Source of the DNA: a virus
Length of the DNA stretch: 64,000 nucleotides
Virus record (IMG/VR): IMGVR_UViG_3300025013_000002
Location: 1-64,000 of that record
Strand: one strand, 5' to 3'
Positions 12,589-56,624 of this stretch are shown here, piece after piece. The position numbers and the translations under genes were made by a program. The notes beneath the pieces are model-generated. The model was not told where the DNA came from. It saw nothing but the letters and a program-made list of their open reading frames with translations, and searched no databases. Each line of letters opens with the position of its first letter. The first letter of the stretch is position 1.

Positions 12589-14601
12589 CTAGAAGTTGAT
12601 TTTGAGGGTGCGGGTGAAGCTACCCTTGACTCTGCAAAGTACGCTGCTGCGCTGCGTTGAGGAGAACCCGATTCCACTGAGTTGGTTCTCGGACTCCTCG
12701 ACCTTCATCTTGGAGCCTACGACCTCGAAGACCTTCCGGTGCGCGTTCAGTTCCTCGTTCAGGAACTCGTTGTAGAAGCCCCGCGCCTTGCCTTCGTTCA
12801 CGCACTTGTCGAGCATGAAGAAGAAGTGCTTGTTTCCTACGCCATGCCCGTCCCAGTGGTTCGGGGAGTGCATGAGGACGTTGACCTTGTGGAAGGTCTG
12901 CGTCGGGAGGCCCCATACGACCTTCGATGTCTGCGAAGAAGGCAGCGACTTGACGATCTCGAATCCGTCCTTGTGGCTGTACTTGATCTGGGCGACTTCG
13001 ACATAATCCCTGGGGTGCATCACCTTGGGGTACGCGAAGTTGTAGGTGGTCCCAGCGAACTCGATCTCGACTTCGAAACCGAAGTTGTCGCTGTTGCGCT
13101 GGGAGAACTGGTGGACCATCAGCGTATAAACGCCCTCGCGCATCTGGCGCTTGTCGGAGTAGTAAATATTCTCCGCAGGATCGGTCCTCATCCCGTCTGC
13201 GCCGTTTGCGTCCAGGTCGAGGCACCCACCATTCGGAGATAGCCTGCGGCGGTTCGAGTAGTAGATCTTGTGGCCGTTCGGCTCGATCATGTGGAAGTCG
13301 AGGTCGTCGGTATTGTTCCACGCCAGCCTGCAGCAGAGGTCGCCTTCGACCTTCCCACCAGCCTTCTTGACGCGCTCCTTGATCGAGTCCGTCATGTCGC
13401 CTGTGTACGACCACGAGAAGTTGTTCGGCCACTTGAACATGCCCTTGGCGTCAGAGTCGATGGGAGCGATCAGGCTGACCATGTTCCCGGCGTGCTTGTT
13501 CTCAAGCAGGATCTCCAACGACTCCACCTTCGGTAGAACATTGGAGATAAATTCTGCGATCCCGATTTCTTCAACTCGGTCGAAACTTTTCATGTTCTCG
13601 GGAACAGCCCCAGCCAACTCCTCGAACACATTAGTCATCCGCTGCTTGGATTCCCTGTTGGCGAACAGGATGTTGTTCACGGTGATGTCTTCCATGACCG
13701 CGTACCTGCGCTGGAGGGCAGAGGTTAACCCGAGTTCCTCGATTGTCCTCTGCGCCTTCTCGATCATGCCCTTGGTGATCAGAGCGCTGGGGCGCTTGTA
13801 GTTGCTAGGCGCCACCTTTGCCTCGAACGATCCTACAGACGGCTCCAGGTCCTTGCCTTCGGAGAGATCCACCAGCAAAGTCCCGATGACCGTGCCTCGA
13901 ATTTTGGAGACAGACTGGGGCACGCTCTTCACCCGCGACCAGCAGAAGATGTCGTGCTGCGAAGCCGGAAGCTTGGCGAATTCCTTCTTCAGCTTCAAGA
14001 AGCTCTCCACCGCGAACTTGTGTTCCTCGCCCCGGTACAGCGAATTCTGCGCGATCAGCTCCAGCACTGTGTCGATGGAATCCAGAGAGATTTCCTTGAG
14101 GCTCCTCAGGAAAACGTCCTTGGTGCTCCTGGACTCAGACAGTCTGGCGCCGATGTCGAGCCCTTTGACCACTCGGTCGGTCGGGATCTTGATGTAGAAG
14201 TGCTCCCAGGTAAGCATTTCTCCCGAATCCGTCTGCTGGAAGTTTTTGTCAACCCCGGCTACGGACTCAGGGTGGAGGAAGATGTTGCTGATTTCGCTGG
14301 ATTTAACCAGAGTGGAAAGCGCGTCCGAAACTACCTGATAGAAGCCGCCGGGCTGGGCGTCCCAGATACTGACCACTTTCCCGTCGATGATGGCAACTAC
14401 GTCGCCAACCGCTCTGATAAAGGATCGACAGCAGGTGCAATCGTGCTCCGTGCGTTCTTTGTAGATCGGATCGGTGCCTTCTGGGAAGCTGCTGAGGTAG
14501 GTCTCCCAGAGAAGATCCTTGGAAACCTCGGCGCGAAAAAGCTCGTGCTGCTTCATCACATCGAACTGCTTTTGAACCGCTACCTTGAAATCGTTGAACA
14601 T
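12589..14601 (-). CDS. Large phage protein with DUF2135-like domain
   Basis: 670 residues from the ATG at 14,601 with AGGAGG five bases upstream. Residues 1-400 show no motif I recognise except a CTCC pair near residue 50. Residues about 420-560 (CRLAWNNTDDLDFHMIEPNG, NGGCLDLDANG, VYTLMVHQFSQR) resemble the DUF2135/YfaP-type domain, a beta-rich domain with conserved D and N residues. Biochemical role unknown. It has a double-operator promoter and comes right after a small-RNA terminator, so it is a separately regulated unit with the gene at 12,188. Confidence 0.75.
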   Translation of the reverse strand: MFNDFKVAVQKQFDVMKQHELFRAEVSKDLLWETYLSSFPEGTDPIYKERTEHDCTCCRSFIRAVGDVVAIIDGKVVSIWDAQPGGFYQVVSDALSTLVKSSEISNIFLHPESVAGVDKNFQQTDSGEMLTWEHFYIKIPTDRVVKGLDIGARLSESRSTKDVFLRSLKEISLDSIDTVLELIAQNSLYRGEEHKFAVESFLKLKKEFAKLPASQHDIFCWSRVKSVPQSVSKIRGTVIGTLLVDLSEGKDLEPSVGSFEAKVAPSNYKRPSALITKGMIEKAQRTIEELGLTSALQRRYAVMEDITVNNILFANRESKQRMTNVFEELAGAVPENMKSFDRVEEIGIAEFISNVLPKVESLEILLENKHAGNMVSLIAPIDSDAKGMFKWPNNFSWSYTGDMTDSIKERVKKAGGKVEGDLCCRLAWNNTDDLDFHMIEPNGHKIYYSNRRRLSPNGGCLDLDANGADGMRTDPAENIYYSDKRQMREGVYTLMVHQFSQRNSDNFGFEVEIEFAGTTYNFAYPKVMHPRDYVEVAQIKYSHKDGFEIVKSLPSSQTSKVVWGLPTQTFHKVNVLMHSPNHWDGHGVGNKHFFFMLDKCVNEGKARGFYNEFLNEELNAHRKVFEVVGSKMKVEESENQLSGIGFSSTQRSSVLCRVKGSFTRTLKINF

Positions 14602-14639: not shown

Positions 14640-14668
14640 ATCCTAATTCATTTCTGAATTATTGTCAA
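14640..14668 (-). promoter_or_regulatory. Promoter with palindrome filling the spacer
   Basis: TTGACA (14,663-14,668) and TAGGAT (14,640-14,645) are 17 bp apart, and the spacer contains ATTCAGAAATGAAT at 14,646-14,659. A second copy, ATTCAGAAGTGAAT, lies at 14,676-14,689 just upstream. A protein bound to the palindrome would sit between the two polymerase contact sites. Confidence 0.8.
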
Positions 14669-14699
14669 GCTAAAAATTCACTTCTGAATACTTTCTGGT

Positions 14700-14809: not shown

Positions 14810-14838
14810 ACAATAATCTACTTCGGCCTAAATGTCAA
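14810..14838 (-). promoter_or_regulatory. Promoter of the small RNA gene
   Basis: TTGACA at 14,833-14,838, 17-bp spacer, TATTGT at 14,810-14,815. The palindrome ATTCAGATGTGAAT lies immediately upstream at 14,846-14,859, the same distance from -35 as at the 14.6 and 58.2 kb promoters. Confidence 0.7.
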
Positions 14839-30508: not shown

Positions 30509-30522
30509 ATTCACATCTGAAT
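30509..30522. repeat. ATTCA-N4-TGAAT palindrome
   Basis: Copy ATTCACATCTGAAT three bases downstream of the -10 of the 30.5 kb promoter, so it would overlap the transcription start. Confidence 0.8.
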
Positions 30523-32684: not shown

Positions 32685-33077
32685 CTACCTCATGCTCTGC
32701 ACCAAGTTGTGGCTGCAGTAGCCGTTTTTGGCTACGCTGATCGCCTCGCCTGTTGAAATAAAATACCCGCCCAAATCCCAGTCCTTAACCAGGTCTCGCA
32801 AATAACCGTAACTGATTCCTAAAATGTAGGCAGCGTCTTTCCGCGTGTAGCCTTCCGACGCCACTTGAATAACGTCCTCTTTCGAGACGCAGCGGGAGCT
32901 GGCTCTGGTGTGAGGGTACAAGTGGGTCATGCCATTTTTACGAATCACCTCCCCGAAATTCCTTAAGCTAAGCCCCAACCTCTTAGCAGCAGCACGCTGG
33001 TTCAATCCAGCGACTCCAACGCAGTCGGCGTAGGTGATGCCACATTGAGGGAAGAGGATTTTGTTGGTGTTGGTCAA
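32685..33077 (-). CDS. Helix-turn-helix DNA-binding protein
   Basis: 130 residues. I choose TTG at 33,077 because ATGGAGGAAATT just upstream provides GGAGG at the right spacing, whereas the ATG at 33,089 lacks a site. Two helix-turn-helix-like units are visible: NQRAAAKRLGLSLRNFGEVI and YTRKDAAYILGISYGYLRDL. A regulator for one of the palindrome families is an obvious but unproven possibility. An ATTCA-N4-TGAAT palindrome lies directly upstream. Confidence 0.75.
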   Translation of the reverse strand: MTNTNKILFPQCGITYADCVGVAGLNQRAAAKRLGLSLRNFGEVIRKNGMTHLYPHTRASSRCVSKEDVIQVASEGYTRKDAAYILGISYGYLRDLVKDWDLGGYFISTGEAISVAKNGYCSHNLVQSMR

Positions 33078-33093
33078 AATTTCCTCCATTTCT

Positions 33094-33107
33094 ATTCAGA
33101 TGTGAAT
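33094..33107. repeat. ATTCA-N4-TGAAT palindrome
   Basis: Copy ATTCAGATGTGAAT immediately before the helix-turn-helix gene. Confidence 0.8.
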
Positions 33108-33711: not shown

Positions 33712-34803
33712 CTATTCCGCCGCCTTCACGTTCAATAAAGGCTTGATATGGTCAATCACCCTCACGGTGACTCCCTCCTGCTTTGCCAGCACGTAATTGA
33801 TGTCCTTGTAGGCGGCGGGTGCCTCATCTAGGATCGAACGGTCGGTCGAGCAGATGATCCCGCGCATCCCGTCCTTGAACTCCTGATAATCCAGCGTCTT
33901 CTTCGCCTGATTCCTGCCCATGACCCTACCGCAGCCGTGAGACGCCGAGGAGAGATAATGAGTCTCGCCCAAGCCCTCCGTGATATAAACCCCGTCCCGC
34001 ATGTTGGCGGGGATTACGCCGAGCTGCCCAAGGTCCGCTGGAGTCGCACCTTTGCGGTGCAGGACTCCTTCAGCAGTTACAACGGCGTGATTGTGGTTCT
34101 CGTTGATGAGGTTCTTCATCAGGAGCTTGGAGACCTGAGAAATCCCAAGCACACCCAGAACCGCCTTCATCATCCTCAATCGGTTCTCCAGTGCCCACTC
34201 AAGAGCGAAATTCATGTCCTGAAGGTACGCCTGTCCAAGCTCAGATTCAAGCTGGAACATCCGGCCCTGCTTCATATACCAGCCGCCGATTGTGTGACCT
34301 ACGTTTCTGGAGCCTGAGTGGATCGTGATGCAGAGACTACCGGCTTGGTTCTCGCCCAACTCGATGAAATGATTTCCACCACCTAGCGTTCCGAGTTGAG
34401 TGCCTACTTTAGCCTGGACCTTCTGGAGTGTATTTTTGTCCAGCGCTTCGGACTTGAATTTTCTTGAGTAACTTTTCTCCGAAGCATGTGAGGAGAACCC
34501 CGTAGGGATTACCTTCAGGATGTCGTTGTAGATGCCACGCAGCGTTGTGACCTCAGCAGCGACCATCTGCGTGTCCAAGCAGCACATGCCACACCCGATG
34601 TCGTATCCGACGAAACTCGGAGATATCATCCCATCCAGGAGAGCTACCCCTCCAATCGGCAGGTCGTAACCTGCGTGGACATCAGGCATGATCGCCAGCT
34701 TCTTCAGGCAATCCAATTCCAGTACATCAAAAATCTGCTGCTGAGCGGACTGCTCAATTTCCTCCAGCGGAACCATCGAGAACAACTTGTCGAGCTTACT
34801 CAT
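33712..34803 (-). CDS. rtcB: RtcB-type RNA ligase
   Basis: 363 residues. RtcB motifs in order: MPDVHAGYDLPIG, GYDIGCGM (metal cysteine), GTLGGGNHFIEL, IHSGSRNVG, ENHNHA and SASHGCGRVMGR with the histidine that accepts GMP. RtcB joins 2',3'-cyclic phosphate and 5'-OH RNA ends. In phages it can repair tRNAs cleaved by host defence nucleases, which suits a phage that also carries a tRNA. Shorter than E. coli RtcB (about 408 residues). Confidence 0.95.
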   Translation of the reverse strand: MSKLDKLFSMVPLEEIEQSAQQQIFDVLELDCLKKLAIMPDVHAGYDLPIGGVALLDGMISPSFVGYDIGCGMCCLDTQMVAAEVTTLRGIYNDILKVIPTGFSSHASEKSYSRKFKSEALDKNTLQKVQAKVGTQLGTLGGGNHFIELGENQAGSLCITIHSGSRNVGHTIGGWYMKQGRMFQLESELGQAYLQDMNFALEWALENRLRMMKAVLGVLGISQVSKLLMKNLINENHNHAVVTAEGVLHRKGATPADLGQLGVIPANMRDGVYITEGLGETHYLSSASHGCGRVMGRNQAKKTLDYQEFKDGMRGIICSTDRSILDEAPAAYKDINYVLAKQEGVTVRVIDHIKPLLNVKAAE

Positions 34804-34816
34804 CTCTCCCTCCTAA

Positions 34817-34830
34817 ATTCACTTCCGAAT
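34817..34830. repeat. ATTCA-N4-TGAAT palindrome, one mismatch
   Basis: Copy ATTCACTTCCGAAT just upstream of the GGAGGG site of the rtcB gene. Confidence 0.7.
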
Positions 34831-34839
34831 TCCTACTCC

Positions 34840-34870
34840 AAAAGGAAGCGGCCTCCAAGAAACCGCCTCC
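34840..34870 (-). terminator. Rho-independent terminator
   Basis: On the minus strand GGAGGCGG pairs with CCGCTTCC and is followed by TTTTGG, eight bases beyond the stop of the MarR-like gene. It separates the regulator from rtcB. Confidence 0.75.
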
Positions 34871-34877
34871 CTCCAAA

Positions 34878-35234
34878 TCAACCCTCAATAATATCCGAGA
34901 TCTCCTTCAGCACTTTCTTCCCCTTCGCCGTCAGATAAACCGCGTTCGCCTTTCGGTCATCTACGTCGGGGCGCTGTGCAACCAACTCGTAACCAGCTTT
35001 CGTTTTATTCCCATTGTCGGATTCTACCAGGTAGACCGAAAGTTTTTTGACGTTTCGAGAAACGGTACCTTGGGGCCACCCAAGTTTCTCCGCTATTTTC
35101 GGTTGCGTGATCCCATCCTGCTCAGCGATTGCCAGTAAAAGCATGACGTGCTGCAGGGGAAGTTCTGCGAATATTTTTTCCAGCACATGCTGCGCCTTCT
35201 TGAACTTCACGAGACCACTTGTTAATCCAGCCAT
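34878..35234 (-). CDS. MarR-like winged-helix regulator, copy 2
   Basis: 118 residues. ITQPKIAEKLGWPQGTVSRN is the recognition helix-turn-helix and the wing is followed by VYLTAKGKKVLKEISDI, the usual MarR C-terminal strand and helix. Its neighbour at 35,327 is a diverged paralogue. Between them lies an imperfect palindrome (ATTCACAATCGAAT near 35,290), so self-regulation is likely. Confidence 0.8.
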   Translation of the reverse strand: MAGLTSGLVKFKKAQHVLEKIFAELPLQHVMLLLAIAEQDGITQPKIAEKLGWPQGTVSRNVKKLSVYLVESDNGNKTKAGYELVAQRPDVDDRKANAVYLTAKGKKVLKEISDIIEG

Positions 35235-35326
35235 TTTGTTTTCCTCCTTGTTTTGGTTTTATTTTCTAAGCCAGCAATTCAAATTAGAATTTACATTCGA
35301 TTGTGAATTGCCTAACTCAAAAATTT

Positions 35327-35683
35327 TTAAGCTGAGGATTCCACGATGGACCTCAACTCCTTGAAAATCTGCCTTCCTCTAATCGACAGGACCACTTCTC
35401 GTTCACGGCGGTTCTCCAAGCTGATTCTCAAATTGATCAGCCCGTAGCCCATTTTCACCGTCCTCTTGGAATCTATAGCGACCAAATAAGATGGACCCAG
35501 CAGCCTCAACATATTTGTTAAGGTGGCTCTGCCCAGCTTAGAAAGGTCCTTCAAATCCGAGATTGTGATTCCTTCTTGCTCAGCTACCAGCAAGAATAGG
35601 TTTATCAACGAGGACGAAATGCCTTTAAATCTCTCTCCGTACAACTCCTGGAATCGCTCAGCGTAAGCAGGGTCGAGAGGCAT
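35327..35683 (-). CDS. MarR-like winged-helix regulator, copy 1
   Basis: 118 residues from the ATG at 35,683 with TGGAG upstream. ITISDLKDLSKLGRATLTNM is the helix-turn-helix; VVLSIRGRQIFKELRSIV matches the end of its twin. The segment FKGISSSLINLFLLVAEQEG aligns with LPLQHVMLLLAIAEQDG in copy 2. A strong promoter sits upstream. Confidence 0.78.
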   Translation of the reverse strand: MPLDPAYAERFQELYGERFKGISSSLINLFLLVAEQEGITISDLKDLSKLGRATLTNMLRLLGPSYLVAIDSKRTVKMGYGLINLRISLENRREREVVLSIRGRQIFKELRSIVESSA

Positions 35684-35714
35684 GTCGTCTCCAGTTGGTA
35701 TCCATTTGTGATTA

Positions 35715-35743
35715 AGAATACACATCTGATCCGAGAGTGTCAA
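35715..35743 (-). promoter_or_regulatory. Promoter of the MarR-like pair
   Basis: TTGACA (35,738-35,743), 17-bp spacer, TATTCT (35,715-35,720). The spacer contains ATCAGATGTGTATT, a weakened form of the ATTCA-N4-TGAAT palindrome. Confidence 0.75.
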
Positions 35744-35786
35744 GCGGTTTGACTCAGATTTTCAAAACAAGGAGGTTTGAATTGTT

Positions 35787-36545
35787 CTACTCGGCCACCT
35801 CGATGTCGTCGAAGCAACCAGGAAACCTCGCTTGCATCAACCTGAGAAGCGGCATTGAAACCTCTCGCATTTGCGGATGTGCTGCTTTCGCCGTCCTGAG
35901 TTTGAAGAACAGGCGCCACTCTCGGAGATTTGCGGTCATTACGAGTTCTGTTTTTAGGCTGTTGGGGAGGACCGAACGGGCTTGCTCGGGACGCTCACCA
36001 AGGTGGCGTTGGCGCAAGTAGTTGTCCTCAGCCAGTTGCATTGAATAAAGCCAGCCGGTCATCGGGTCGCCTAATTCTTCCAGCGTGGCTCTTGCTGCGT
36101 CGTCAGTCGCGATGCTTGCTTCGCCCGGCAGCAACTGAGGATACCAAGGCGGTATCATGAACCCCAAGCTCTGAGGTAGCCACTCCGCATCACAAGCAGG
36201 GCAAGTAACCTCCGCGTACCTAGCCTCCATAGACCCACCACAAGCGCCACATACCACTCGTGCGGCGTAATCACAATAGCGAGTCGATTCCTGACTGAAG
36301 CTCGCGATCCGGTGTCGCACAAGCTCGTGCGAGACACCCCGGGCACACACAAACCTAACCGAAGCTGCAGCATGTTCTAAAACAGACTCGTGGCCGCGCT
36401 TCAGGATCATCGCTACGAACTTCTCTGCGGAGTCCTCGGTGATCTTGTCCTCTGACTTGTAGCAGGTCCTGCCTGCGAGTTCGATCAGCTTCAGGGCGTC
36501 CGGGGTGGAGGATATGATTTCTACTGAGGGTTTTATAAGTCTCAC
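35787..36545 (-). CDS. thyX: Flavin-dependent thymidylate synthase ThyX with zinc-ribbon insert
   Basis: 252 residues from GTG at 36,545 (GTGA overlap with the upstream gene). ThyX signature RHRIASFSQESTRY is complete, with later LPNSLKTELVMTANLREW. It makes dTMP from dUMP with folate and FAD. Unusual is an insert right after the signature: VVCGACGGSMEARY and VTCPACDAEW give four cysteines, a zinc ribbon not part of typical ThyX. Confidence 0.93.
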   Translation of the reverse strand: MRLIKPSVEIISSTPDALKLIELAGRTCYKSEDKITEDSAEKFVAMILKRGHESVLEHAAASVRFVCARGVSHELVRHRIASFSQESTRYCDYAARVVCGACGGSMEARYAEVTCPACDAEWLPQSLGFMIPPWYPQLLPGEASIATDDAARATLEELGDPMTGWLYSMQLAEDNYLRQRHLGERPEQARSVLPNSLKTELVMTANLREWRLFFKLRTAKAAHPQMREVSMPLLRLMQARFPGCFDDIEVAE

Positions 36546-36865: not shown

Positions 36866-37471
36866 TTAAAAATGTCGATATTCCCTAGCCAATTTTAAAA
36901 CTTTCCTCACGTATTTCGGATTCCTCTTGCCTCTGCTGAAAGCCCCAGTGCCTAAATTATAAACCTGAAGCCCGTTCCGGACCCCATACTTCGTCACGTA
37001 CTCCTTCAGGATTTCAGCAGAGCACCTGATGTTAACCTCGGGATCGTACTTTTCAGACTCCTTCGTAATTAAGGGGAACCGGTCGGCGTGGGCTTTGAAG
37101 TCCACCTGCCCAGAGCCCTTCGCACCGGTCCTACTTCTAGCGAAGGGGTAGCCCTCGGACTCAGCAGTGATGACCCCGACTAAAAGGCTCAGGTCCAGGC
37201 GTTGCTCTTTCGCCGCAGCAATGGTAGCTGCTGCCTGGTACTCAGCCAGCTCAGGCCAAAGCCGCTCGTTCTTCTCCATGTACCACAGCGTCAGCCGCTG
37301 GGTTGCTGCGTTGACTTCCTGCTTTTTACCTTCGACCAAAACTTGGGCTTTCTGATCCACCTTCTGGACTTCCAAGAGCGCCTTGGTTGCGACCGCAGTT
37401 GCCGCTGCTGTTAAAATCACCAGCACAACTCCGATCTGGGCCAGGTGAGCCACCCGGATTTTAAGCCTCAT
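36866..37471 (-). CDS. Membrane-anchored lytic transglycosylase
   Basis: 201 residues. One membrane segment at residues 12-32 (IGVVLVILTAAATAVATKAL), then a coiled region, then an SLT domain: VGVITAESEGYPFARS with the catalytic glutamate, GAKGSGQVDF and VYNLGTGAFSRGK. It cuts peptidoglycan, for lysis or for local wall opening. The start overlaps the small ribbon-helix-helix gene by 11 bases. Confidence 0.88.
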   Translation of the reverse strand: MRLKIRVAHLAQIGVVLVILTAAATAVATKALLEVQKVDQKAQVLVEGKKQEVNAATQRLTLWYMEKNERLWPELAEYQAAATIAAAKEQRLDLSLLVGVITAESEGYPFARSRTGAKGSGQVDFKAHADRFPLITKESEKYDPEVNIRCSAEILKEYVTKYGVRNGLQVYNLGTGAFSRGKRNPKYVRKVLKLAREYRHF

Positions 37472-37616
37472 TTGCTGCTCCTTTTCTCAAAACGTACTCC
37501 TTGTCGATCAACTCTCTGAGGATCAGGGATTTGTTGGATTTCCCTGTTCCTAATCTGACGAGTTCCTCTAGTTTTTTAGTAGTGTCCTCGTCGAGTGCGA
37601 TGCAGTGCTTGACCAT
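37461..37616 (-). CDS. Ribbon-helix-helix (CopG-like) protein
   Basis: 51 residues from ATG at 37,616 (a GTG sits one codon before) behind AAAAGGAGGTGA. KHCIALDEDTTKKLEELVRL, then KSNKSLILRELIDKEY, is the strand plus two helices of the Arc/MetJ/CopG family. Such dimers bind palindromic operators, so this is a candidate reader of the repeats in this genome; no direct proof. Confidence 0.75.
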   Translation of the reverse strand: MVKHCIALDEDTTKKLEELVRLGTGKSNKSLILRELIDKEYVLRKGAANEA

Positions 37617-37637
37617 CACTTTTTAAATCACCTCCTT

Positions 37638-38459: not shown

Positions 38460-39143
38460 TTAAACAGGACCAATCCTCACCAAGAGATTCTTGACGCCCT
38501 GCGAGGTCCAAACCTTTTTCTTCCTGGGAGTCTGGATTCCTGCTTCGGTCAATTGCTGAGCCAGCGCCGTTAAAGATGTGATGCCCTGACTCTGAAATTT
38601 GAGGATCTCGGGCTTCAACTTCTCGGCTCTGAGATCCGCCTTTGTTCGGTTTTTCAGGGAGCCTTGGATTCTGCCATCACTGAACTTCTCGGAATCTCTA
38701 TTCAAGTGGCAGGCCTTGCCCAACTGAACTCCCTTCGCCTTAGCCGCTTTCAGGCCGTTCTTGGTCCTCTCCCTGATCCTCTCCAGCTCGTACTCAGCTA
38801 CGCACCCGAGCACGTTCAGGACGAATCTGGAAGCGTTGGGGAAATCGCAGATGATGATCTCGACTCCGGAATCCAGGATCGCCCCGAGAAACGAGAGGCT
38901 TCTGGAGAGACGATCAAGTCTTGCTGTGATCAGCCTGCAGCCGGTCAACTCGCAGTAGTTCAGGGCCTCCTTCAAGACCGGTCTTGAAGGAGGCCCGCCG
39001 GATTCGACTTCTACAAATTCCTTGATGACTACGAGATTGTTCCTAGCAGCATATTCCGCCCGAATAGTCCTCTGCGCGTCAAGGCCATGCCTTTCCGACT
39101 GAGATTTAGTGCTCACCCTATCGTAGCTGACCACGCGCTCCAT
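38460..39143 (-). CDS. Small serine recombinase (resolvase/invertase family)
   Basis: 227 residues from the ATG at 39,143 behind AAGGAGG. SYDRVSTKSQ holds the nucleophilic serine (residue 11), followed by LITARLDRLSRS with the catalytic arginines and a C-terminal recognition region with LTALAQQLTEAGIQTPRKK. Members invert, resolve or integrate DNA. It lacks the large domain of phage integrases, so resolution, inversion or transposition is likelier than phage integration. Confidence 0.9.
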   Translation of the reverse strand: MERVVSYDRVSTKSQSERHGLDAQRTIRAEYAARNNLVVIKEFVEVESGGPPSRPVLKEALNYCELTGCRLITARLDRLSRSLSFLGAILDSGVEIIICDFPNASRFVLNVLGCVAEYELERIRERTKNGLKAAKAKGVQLGKACHLNRDSEKFSDGRIQGSLKNRTKADLRAEKLKPEILKFQSQGITSLTALAQQLTEAGIQTPRKKKVWTSQGVKNLLVRIGPV

Positions 39144-43529: not shown

Positions 43530-43558
43530 ATTTTAATTCACTTCTGAATTTTTGTCAA
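43530..43558 (-). promoter_or_regulatory. Promoter with palindrome filling the spacer
   Basis: TTGACA (43,553-43,558) and TAAAAT (43,530-43,535) are 17 bp apart; ATTCAGAAGTGAAT occupies 43,536-43,549. The -35 lies at the stop codon of the upstream gene. A clear repressor-type layout. Confidence 0.82.
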
Positions 43559-56392: not shown

Positions 56393-56500
56393 CTCCCCTC
56401 GGTCGATCCCTACGACCTCCCCTCGGTCGATCCCTACGACCTCCCCTCGGTCGATCCCTACGACCTCCCCTCGGTCGATCCCTACGACCTCCCCTCGGTC
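56393..56500. repeat. 24-bp tandem repeat, 4.5 copies, at the strand switch
   Basis: The unit CTCCCCTCGGTCGATCCC plus TACGAC is repeated four times without a mismatch and is followed by 12 more bases, then a G-rich tract. It lies between the leftward promoter (56,285) and the rightward promoter (56,596). Identical tandem units of this length are typical of iteron origins or partition sites, but no initiator gene is next to it. Confidence 0.92.
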
Positions 56501-56572: not shown

Positions 56573-56586
56573 ATTCAGATGTACAT
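56573..56586. repeat. ATTCA-N4-TGAAT half-site
   Basis: ATTCAGATGTACAT, one good half, ten bases before the -35 of the rightward promoter, as at 58.2 kb. Confidence 0.55.
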
Positions 56587-56595
56587 ACTTTTATC

Positions 56596-56624
56596 TTGAC
56601 ACGTAGCGAGTAAAGTGTTAAGGT
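56596..56624 (+). promoter_or_regulatory. Rightward promoter at the strand switch
   Basis: TTGACA (56,596-56,601), 17-bp spacer, TAAGGT (56,619-56,624). Drives the gene at 56,655. Confidence 0.72.

Follow-up and report, generated by a model that had tools for sequence, protein, structure and literature searches.

Organization of the phage and abundance of the palindrome

At positions 14,640 to 14,689 of the window, the 64,000-nucleotide stretch of viral DNA analyzed here, a leftward sigma-70-like promoter is combined with two copies of the palindrome ATTCA-N4-TGAAT (Table 1). The gene behind this double-site promoter, g021 (12589-14601, minus strand), matched the PHROG family phrog_1735, of unknown function, almost end to end (6e-280). 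The window belongs to a virus record of 82,561 bases (82.6 kb), where a simple gene caller predicted 159 genes. Leftward early and replication genes occupy 0-56 kb and rightward genes 56-64 kb; a leftward integrase block follows, and the rightward packaging and structural genes stand after it. The tyrosine integrase, g137 (record 63933-65171, minus strand), was recognized by Pfam (6e-21) and also by a PHROG match, and because this enzyme is present the phage is probably temperate. Pfam also found a serine recombinase, g068 (window 38460-39143, minus strand), beside the tyrosine integrase in the gene set. Between the divergent leftward and rightward blocks, window positions 56393-56500 hold 4.5 perfect copies of the 24-bp repeat CTCCCCTCGGTCGATCCCTACGAC, possible origin iterons or a partition site.

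The best full-length matches of the large terminase were T5-like phages, at 25-29% identity; the T5-like phages (Demerecviridae), which have this T5-type enzyme in common with our phage, are at most distant relatives. To our knowledge, T5 is strictly lytic and has no integrase. A host search via the portal protein in 84,980 genomes gave no relative, a near-identity DNA search of phage records gave no match, and no other temperate phage with a T5-type terminase was found at the intermediate divergence needed for tracking operator change inside the group.

The earlier note had counted about 20 copies of the palindrome across 2.5-61 kb. Exactly 20 were found in the window, where 100 dinucleotide shuffles gave a mean of 0.08 and a maximum of 1, and in the whole record the count was 26, the reversed control pattern being absent. 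When the gap between the arms was varied from 0 to 12 across the record, N4 accounted for the 26 copies and each other gap for 0-1. No other half-site arranged as a 5-N4-5 palindrome occurred more than twice in the record. The inner four bases, described before as C(A/T)TC or its complement in every case, had this form in only 16 of the 20 window copies, the exceptions being 12128 (TTTG), 14646 (TTTC), 17708 (GAAC), and 37888 (CTTG).

Relatives were found by an exact scan of viral contigs for one version of the site. The related contigs contained 32 (G001), 23 (G004), 10 (each of G003, G005, and G006), and 9 (G002) copies, and the unrelated contigs scanned 1-2 copies each. G001 is a full relative of 102,669 bases, circularly permuted and about 70-90% identical in nucleotide sequence over the aligned segments. 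At the 24 sites that aligned, the arms were unchanged in 237 of 240 positions (98.8%, a figure somewhat favoured by the choice of perfect copies in the window), the centres in 90 of 96 (93.8%), and the flanks in 2282 of 2581 (88.4%). The copies at 33094 and 52526 had no alignment in G001; for the first of them, G001 has a copy upstream of the homologous gene. The comparison also indicated that the record of the window is without a region of about 24 kb that stands at 26-50 kb of G001 (L231 to L230). This region probably holds tail genes, and it contains four further copies, at 32858, 39256, 44004, and 45328.

Table 1. Palindrome copies, promoters, and MarR-like genes in the window (positions are those of the window; G001 is the full relative).
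Feature	Start	End	Strand	Context
ATTCA-N4-TGAAT copy	2572	2585		10 nt before g006 (-) start, abuts ribosome site; conserved in relative
ATTCA-N4-TGAAT copy	12128	12141		56 nt upstream of g019 (-), past terminator-like hairpin
g021 promoter TTGACA-N17-TAGGAT	14640	14668	-	ATTCA-N4-TGAAT in spacer
ATTCA-N4-TGAAT copy	14646	14659		In 17-bp spacer of g021 promoter
ATTCA-N4-TGAAT copy	14676	14689		Just upstream of -35, g021 promoter; 30 bp from spacer copy
ATTCA-N4-TGAAT copy	14846	14859		Just upstream of -35, promoter TTGACA-N17-TATTGT at 14810 (-)
ATTCA-N4-TGAAT copy	17708	17721		Intragenic, g025 (DNA ligase); conserved in relative
ATTCA-N4-TGAAT copy	21820	21833		Between g030 stop codon and g029 ribosome site
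ATTCA-N4-TGAAT copy	24632	24645		15 nt before g036 (-) start
ATTCA-N4-TGAAT copy	28688	28701		Intragenic, g048 (DnaB-like helicase); conserved in relative
ATTCA-N4-TGAAT copy	30509	30522		Predicted start point, g050 (-) promoter TTGACA-N17-TAAGTT
ATTCA-N4-TGAAT copy	33094	33107		16 nt before start of g056 (-), HTH protein gene
g060	34878	35234	-	MarR-family winged-helix protein, 118 aa; candidate repressor
Two degraded copies	35277	35308		g060 leader; 1 mismatch each, 18 bp apart; identical in G001
g061	35327	35683	-	Divergent MarR-like neighbour of g060; phrog_9665 4e-8, weak Pfam MarR
g061 upstream promoter TTGACA-N17-TATTCT	35700	35743	-	Degraded copies only, 2-3 mismatches
ATTCA-N4-TGAAT copy	36844	36857		14 nt before g063 (-) start
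One-mismatch copy	37841	37854		Overlaps -10/start, promoter 37852 (-) of g066 and g065 (ribbon-helix-helix)
ATTCA-N4-TGAAT copy	37888	37901		Just upstream of -35, promoter 37852 (-) of g066/g065
ATTCA-N4-TGAAT copy	43536	43549		17-bp spacer of g082 promoter 43530-43558 (-), TTGACA-17-TAAAAT
ATTCA-N4-TGAAT copy	51238	51251		23 nt before g103 (-)
ATTCA-N4-TGAAT copy	52526	52539		49 nt before g108 (-)
ATTCA-N4-TGAAT copy	58160	58173		Just upstream of -35, 58181 promoter; 30 bp from spacer copy
Rightward promoter TTGACA-N17-TACGAT	58181	58209	+	ATTCA-N4-TGAAT in spacer
ATTCA-N4-TGAAT copy	58190	58203		Spacer of rightward 58181 promoter
ATTCA-N4-TGAAT copy	58271	58284		13 nt before g120 (+) start
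ATTCA-N4-TGAAT copy	61103	61116		14 nt before g130 (+) start, past g129 stop codon

Position of the copies at promoters and gene starts

Ten of the 26 record copies were located at promoters, in a small set of registers. Measured as the position of the site centre relative to the 3' end of the -35 hexamer, these were +10 (within the 17-bp spacer), -20/-21 (immediately upstream of -35), and +27/28 (in the start region, seen with near copies). Paired copies stood 30 bp apart. The three spacer cases described previously, at 14.64, 43.53, and 58.18 kb and on both strands, each proved to be a TTGACA hexamer 17 bp from its -10 with the site in between; the second copies just upstream of -35 were recovered at 14676 and 58160, and the start-point copy at 30.5 kb was placed at 30509. 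Moreover, the integrase promoter TTGACT-17-TATATT (record 65192) contained a spacer copy at record 65198. One regulator acting genome-wide is the reading that best fits these data; the claim that it controls most operons was overstated for promoters, as an exact or near copy accompanied 11 of the 18 strong intergenic promoter-like sites.

Other promoters were recorded in the same survey. A rightward promoter before g116 (TTGACA-N17-TAAGGT, window 56573-56620, plus strand) has a two-mismatch copy just upstream of -35. Strong sigma-70-like promoters without copies were found at window 49095, 43769/43810, and 44964, all on the plus strand inside the leftward operon region, and all except 49095 have counterparts in G001 (97008, 97049, and 98066). 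Antisense or small RNAs, perhaps made in the lysogen, may be the products of these copy-free rightward promoters. The product of the first gene of the structural block (L001:3332-3721, plus strand) has a sigma-70 region 4-like domain; one copy is 10 nt before the start of this gene, and another is upstream of its promoter.

The copies were also tied to gene starts. In the record, 23 of the 26 copies were intergenic, compared with 16.7% of non-coding DNA by gene calls (p = 2e-15), and 8 of the 26 were 8-16 nt before a start codon (p = 8e-6 versus random intergenic positions). Proximity to gene starts in G001 gave p = 6e-10. Inspection of the site contexts agreed with the previous description of copies directly before ribosome sites, the usual place being between the stop codon of the previous gene and the ribosome site. 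No credible promoter was seen upstream of the gene-start copies inspected, e.g., 21820 and 24632. Six more copies were 23-71 nt upstream of genes, some of them followed by a terminator-like hairpin, and the two intragenic ones (17708 and 28688) were both kept in G001. An exact copy was present in 18 of the 65 intergenic gaps of at least 25 bp. The scan of the complete record proposed in the earlier note thus returned copies far above chance and tied to promoters and gene starts; a frequency as expected and no link to transcription starts, which the note had set against its own proposal, were not what was observed.

These positions bear on whether the sites serve a repressor or an activator, a choice that had been left open. 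The presence of sites within 17-bp spacers, the optimal length, and at or downstream of the start point favours a repressor. Activation in a MerR-like or class II manner would agree with the sites just upstream of -35, the usual position of an activator, but it is very unlikely. MerR-type activators located in the spacer need long spacers, whereas the spacers found here are of the optimal length, 17 bp, and separate good -35 and -10 hexamers. Moreover, no upstream promoter can be activated from the copies at the start point (30509) or directly in front of ribosome sites. The activator reading was rejected on the position of the start-point and gene-start copies.

Many copies abut a ribosome site, and they could act as RNA, through a hairpin at this site that controls translation. 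We regard this as exceedingly improbable: promoters with copies in the spacer or upstream of -35 yield transcripts that do not include these copies, the predicted folds were no better than those of shuffles (z -0.05 to -0.50), and no Rfam family was matched. Similarly, it is scarcely credible that the sites serve DNA processing or mosaic exchange, be it with a recombinase, in packaging, or as gene-boundary linkers. Such a function would suit the copies at gene boundaries, the serine recombinase encoded by the phage, and the new genes of G001 that bring their own copies (72719, 73230, and 73558, versus one at window 21820), but it would not explain the fixed registers within promoters, and most copies were in well-aligned DNA and not at homology breakpoints.

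The MarR-like pair and arrays in other phages

Among the phage proteins, the most likely binder of the ATTCA-N4-TGAAT sites is g060. Pfam assigned it to MarR_2 (4e-9, 36.9 bits versus a cutoff of 27) and PHROG to phrog_9665, 'transcriptional regulator' (3e-20). Its AlphaFold2 model (mean pLDDT 84) had MarR topology, and the fold search gave MexR, MarR, MepR, and SlyA as the best PDB matches; a sequence search of solved structures with g060 returned none. The neighbouring g061 had no match when compared with phage records and may be a partner, an antagonist, or a second repressor. The pair is flanked by the RtcB-type RNA ligase g059 and the ThyX thymidylate synthase g062 (window 33712-36545, minus strand). 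The integrase lies at 63.9-65.2 kb of the record, about 29 kb away from g060 at 35.2 kb; the two genes are not neighbours. The degraded copies at the g060/g061 leader and promoter were the same or nearly so in G001, which would be expected of a repressor with weak self-control. A MarR dimer on a palindromic operator is the arrangement suggested by the 5-N4-5 site.

The arms of the site form a perfect palindrome, but the centre does not: it read C-NN-C on one strand in 44 of the 58 copies of the record and G001, with CATC in 27 and CTTC in 13. At gene-start copies, the asymmetric centre followed the orientation of the genome and not that of the gene, and on the plus strand, the CATC-type non-promoter intergenic copies always read GATG, regardless of gene direction. 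This asymmetry is not expected from independent half-sites or a homodimer; possible causes are a g060/g061 heterodimer, the dispersal of duplicated founder sites, and DNA shape. A connection with the number of MarR paralogues was dropped, because phage YIMV22061, where one MarR was recognized, also has C-NN-C centres.

Homologues of g060 are present in integrase-bearing T7-like phages. We searched the non-coding DNA of the phages with g060 homologues for families of 5-Nn-5 palindromes with n from 0 to 12; the p-values that follow are nominal, as many palindrome families were tried per search. The top families, in published T7-like phages, were CACAT-N4-ATGTG in RHph_I20 (L245; 10 sites, p about 1e-15.5), TTRCA-N4-TGYAA in S-CBP2 (L248; 8 sites, 1e-12.8), ATCCA-N4-TGGAT in both TRX32-1 (L259) and RHEph01 (L254) (1e-6), and TCTCG-N4-CGAGA in YIMV22061 (L244; 1e-6). 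Further MarR loci had GCCTA-N4 (L282-L284) and ATCCA-N4 (L274) families. In RHph_I20, sites stand before both MarR genes, the RNA polymerase, and the terminase. In S-CBP2, there were 12 intergenic sites, near or exact, of which 7 were within 20 nt of an annotated start, a gene-start placement common to this array and that of our phage. TRX32-1 was induced from a lysogen.

A strong palindrome family was found in 11 of the 30 tabulated MarR loci, with gap 4 in 9 of them, compared with 10 of 165 viral loci chosen regardless of MarR, where gap 4 appeared in 3 and the rest were spread. The 9 gap-4 MarR loci included related phages and represented 5 distinct half-sites, and gap 4 was also the commonest among a small set of positive controls. 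A strong array was absent in 19 of the 30 tabulated MarR loci, and no array was found in LUZ100, P-SSP7, or the Pelagibacter phages. The comparison of MarR and control loci suggests that the layout of the site accompanies the MarR gene and that its letters vary. As a test of the 5-N4-5 association, it is suggestive rather than conclusive, weakened because related phages were counted repeatedly and two thirds of the MarR loci had no strong array.

Other binders were weighed against g060. Two candidates are the ribbon-helix-helix protein g065 (37461-37619, minus strand), which is 92% identical in the relative, has a weak RHH_1 match, and belongs to an operon whose promoter carries two sites, and the HTH-like g138, which lies beside the integrase in the integration region. 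That one of these, or another phage protein, is the binder is unlikely: g138 had no Pfam or PHROG match, 5-N4-5 arrays are seen again in phages with the MarR homologue, and the degraded sites suggestive of self-regulation are at the MarR genes instead. Both the arrays with other half-sites in the g060-homologue phages and the degraded copies at the MarR genes' own promoter are the reasons why g060/g061 are favoured over the HTH and ribbon-helix-helix proteins that the earlier note had listed beside the MarR-like ones. The sites could also belong to a host regulator exploited by the phage; this is hardly conceivable, as in the contigs tested the array was seen in this phage group only, and in phages of unrelated hosts a phage-encoded MarR gene comes with similar arrays spelled in other letters. 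A protein with HTH and Stoperator domains was not seen among the annotated candidates searched.

Proposed silencing network and its relation to known systems

Collectively, we consider it fairly likely that ATTCA-N4-TGAAT is the operator of a prophage repressor, likely g060, within a stoperator-like silencing network. In a lysogen, a repressor dimer of g060 would occupy about 26-32 dispersed operators, and it would act with, or be countered by, g061. At promoters, the repressor would cover the spacer, the -35 flank, or the start point and block the host sigma-70 RNA polymerase; the geometry of the sites makes such repression well supported. The paired sites 30 bp apart suggest cooperative occupation of strong promoters, and those silenced would include the integrase promoter. 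At gene-start sites with no visible promoter, bound repressor may stop a polymerase already reading the operon, as suggested by analogy with stoperators. The repressor's own promoter, with degraded sites only, would stay on and be weakly self-limited.

The closest precedent is found in Cluster A mycobacteriophages, such as L5 and TipsytheTRex, which have more than 20 dispersed repressor sites (26 in TipsytheTRex) at promoters and in short intergenic gaps, and in L5, those in short intergenic spaces were proposed to halt elongation (PMC9283540). Our phage is alike in its more than 20 dispersed copies, here 26, at promoters and in short intergenic gaps. The L5-type sites are 13-bp, asymmetric, and oriented with transcription, and they are bound by a monomeric repressor with HTH and Stoperator domains (PMC9283540), whereas the sites described here have palindromic arms, an orientation independent of transcription, and a MarR-type candidate repressor. 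Because the site is palindromic, a block in both directions is predicted, unlike in L5.

In temperate T7-like phages, a MarR repressor on sites flanking the RNA polymerase promoter has been proposed (PMC10134795, citing Boeckman et al. 2022). That proposal concerns a switch acting locally, at the RNA polymerase gene beside the integrase, whereas the sites of our phage are genome-wide. The g060 protein is homologous, at about 30% identity, to the MarR-like lysogeny regulators of PHROG 9665 in LUZ100, Pelagibacter, and cyanophage relatives. The T7-like MarR genes adjoin their own integrase, and g060 does not; unlike those phages, ours is large, has a T5-type terminase, and showed no T7-like RNA polymerase. 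The study of Boeckman et al. (2022) on temperate T7-like phages may treat part of the MarR-site idea more fully.

In Helicobacter pylori prophages, two MarR-like genes were hypothesised to hold lysogeny through AT-rich palindromes near promoters; the MarR-like pair is common to both systems, and a dispersed array at gene starts does not feature in the passages considered here (PMC11321410). The 15-bp element SPBRE, located at about ten promoters of SPbeta, is the site of the master repressor MrpR (PMC10516654). As here, this is a repeated element in many prophage promoters, and it is a precedent for such an element being a master-repressor site, although MrpR has a tyrosine-recombinase fold and g060 a winged helix. 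In our phage, the integrase g137 was the one protein of this recombinase type that was recognized. Phage phiC31 has many near-identical conserved inverted repeats (CIRs) genome-wide, which overlap promoters and are recognized by the c repressor; both the letters of these sites and the repressor family are unlike those of our phage.

Genome-wide silencing of the roadblock type is established mainly in actinobacteriophages. The present analysis predicts that phages of Gram-negative-like sigma-70 hosts also have it, and that their repressor comes from a different family. We tentatively put forward, as a possibility, that dispersed gene-start 5-N4-5 MarR operators constitute a separate and widespread form of prophage silencing, independent of the mycobacteriophage stoperators and with lineage-specific half-sites, which would extend from a large temperate phage with a T5-type terminase to the T7-like phages of Rhizobium, Synechococcus, and Limnohabitans. 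The case also gives the proposed MarR lysogeny switch of temperate T7-like phages a testable site code, 5-N4-5 with lineage-specific half-sites, and Rhizobium phage TRX32-1, with its origin in an induced lysogen, would let the idea be tested in culture. Operator arrays may also serve as a shortcut in annotation that flags temperate phages and predicts immunity groups. For the virus described here, the sequence comparisons suggest that g060 probably binds all 26 copies and thereby keeps the virus silent in its host.
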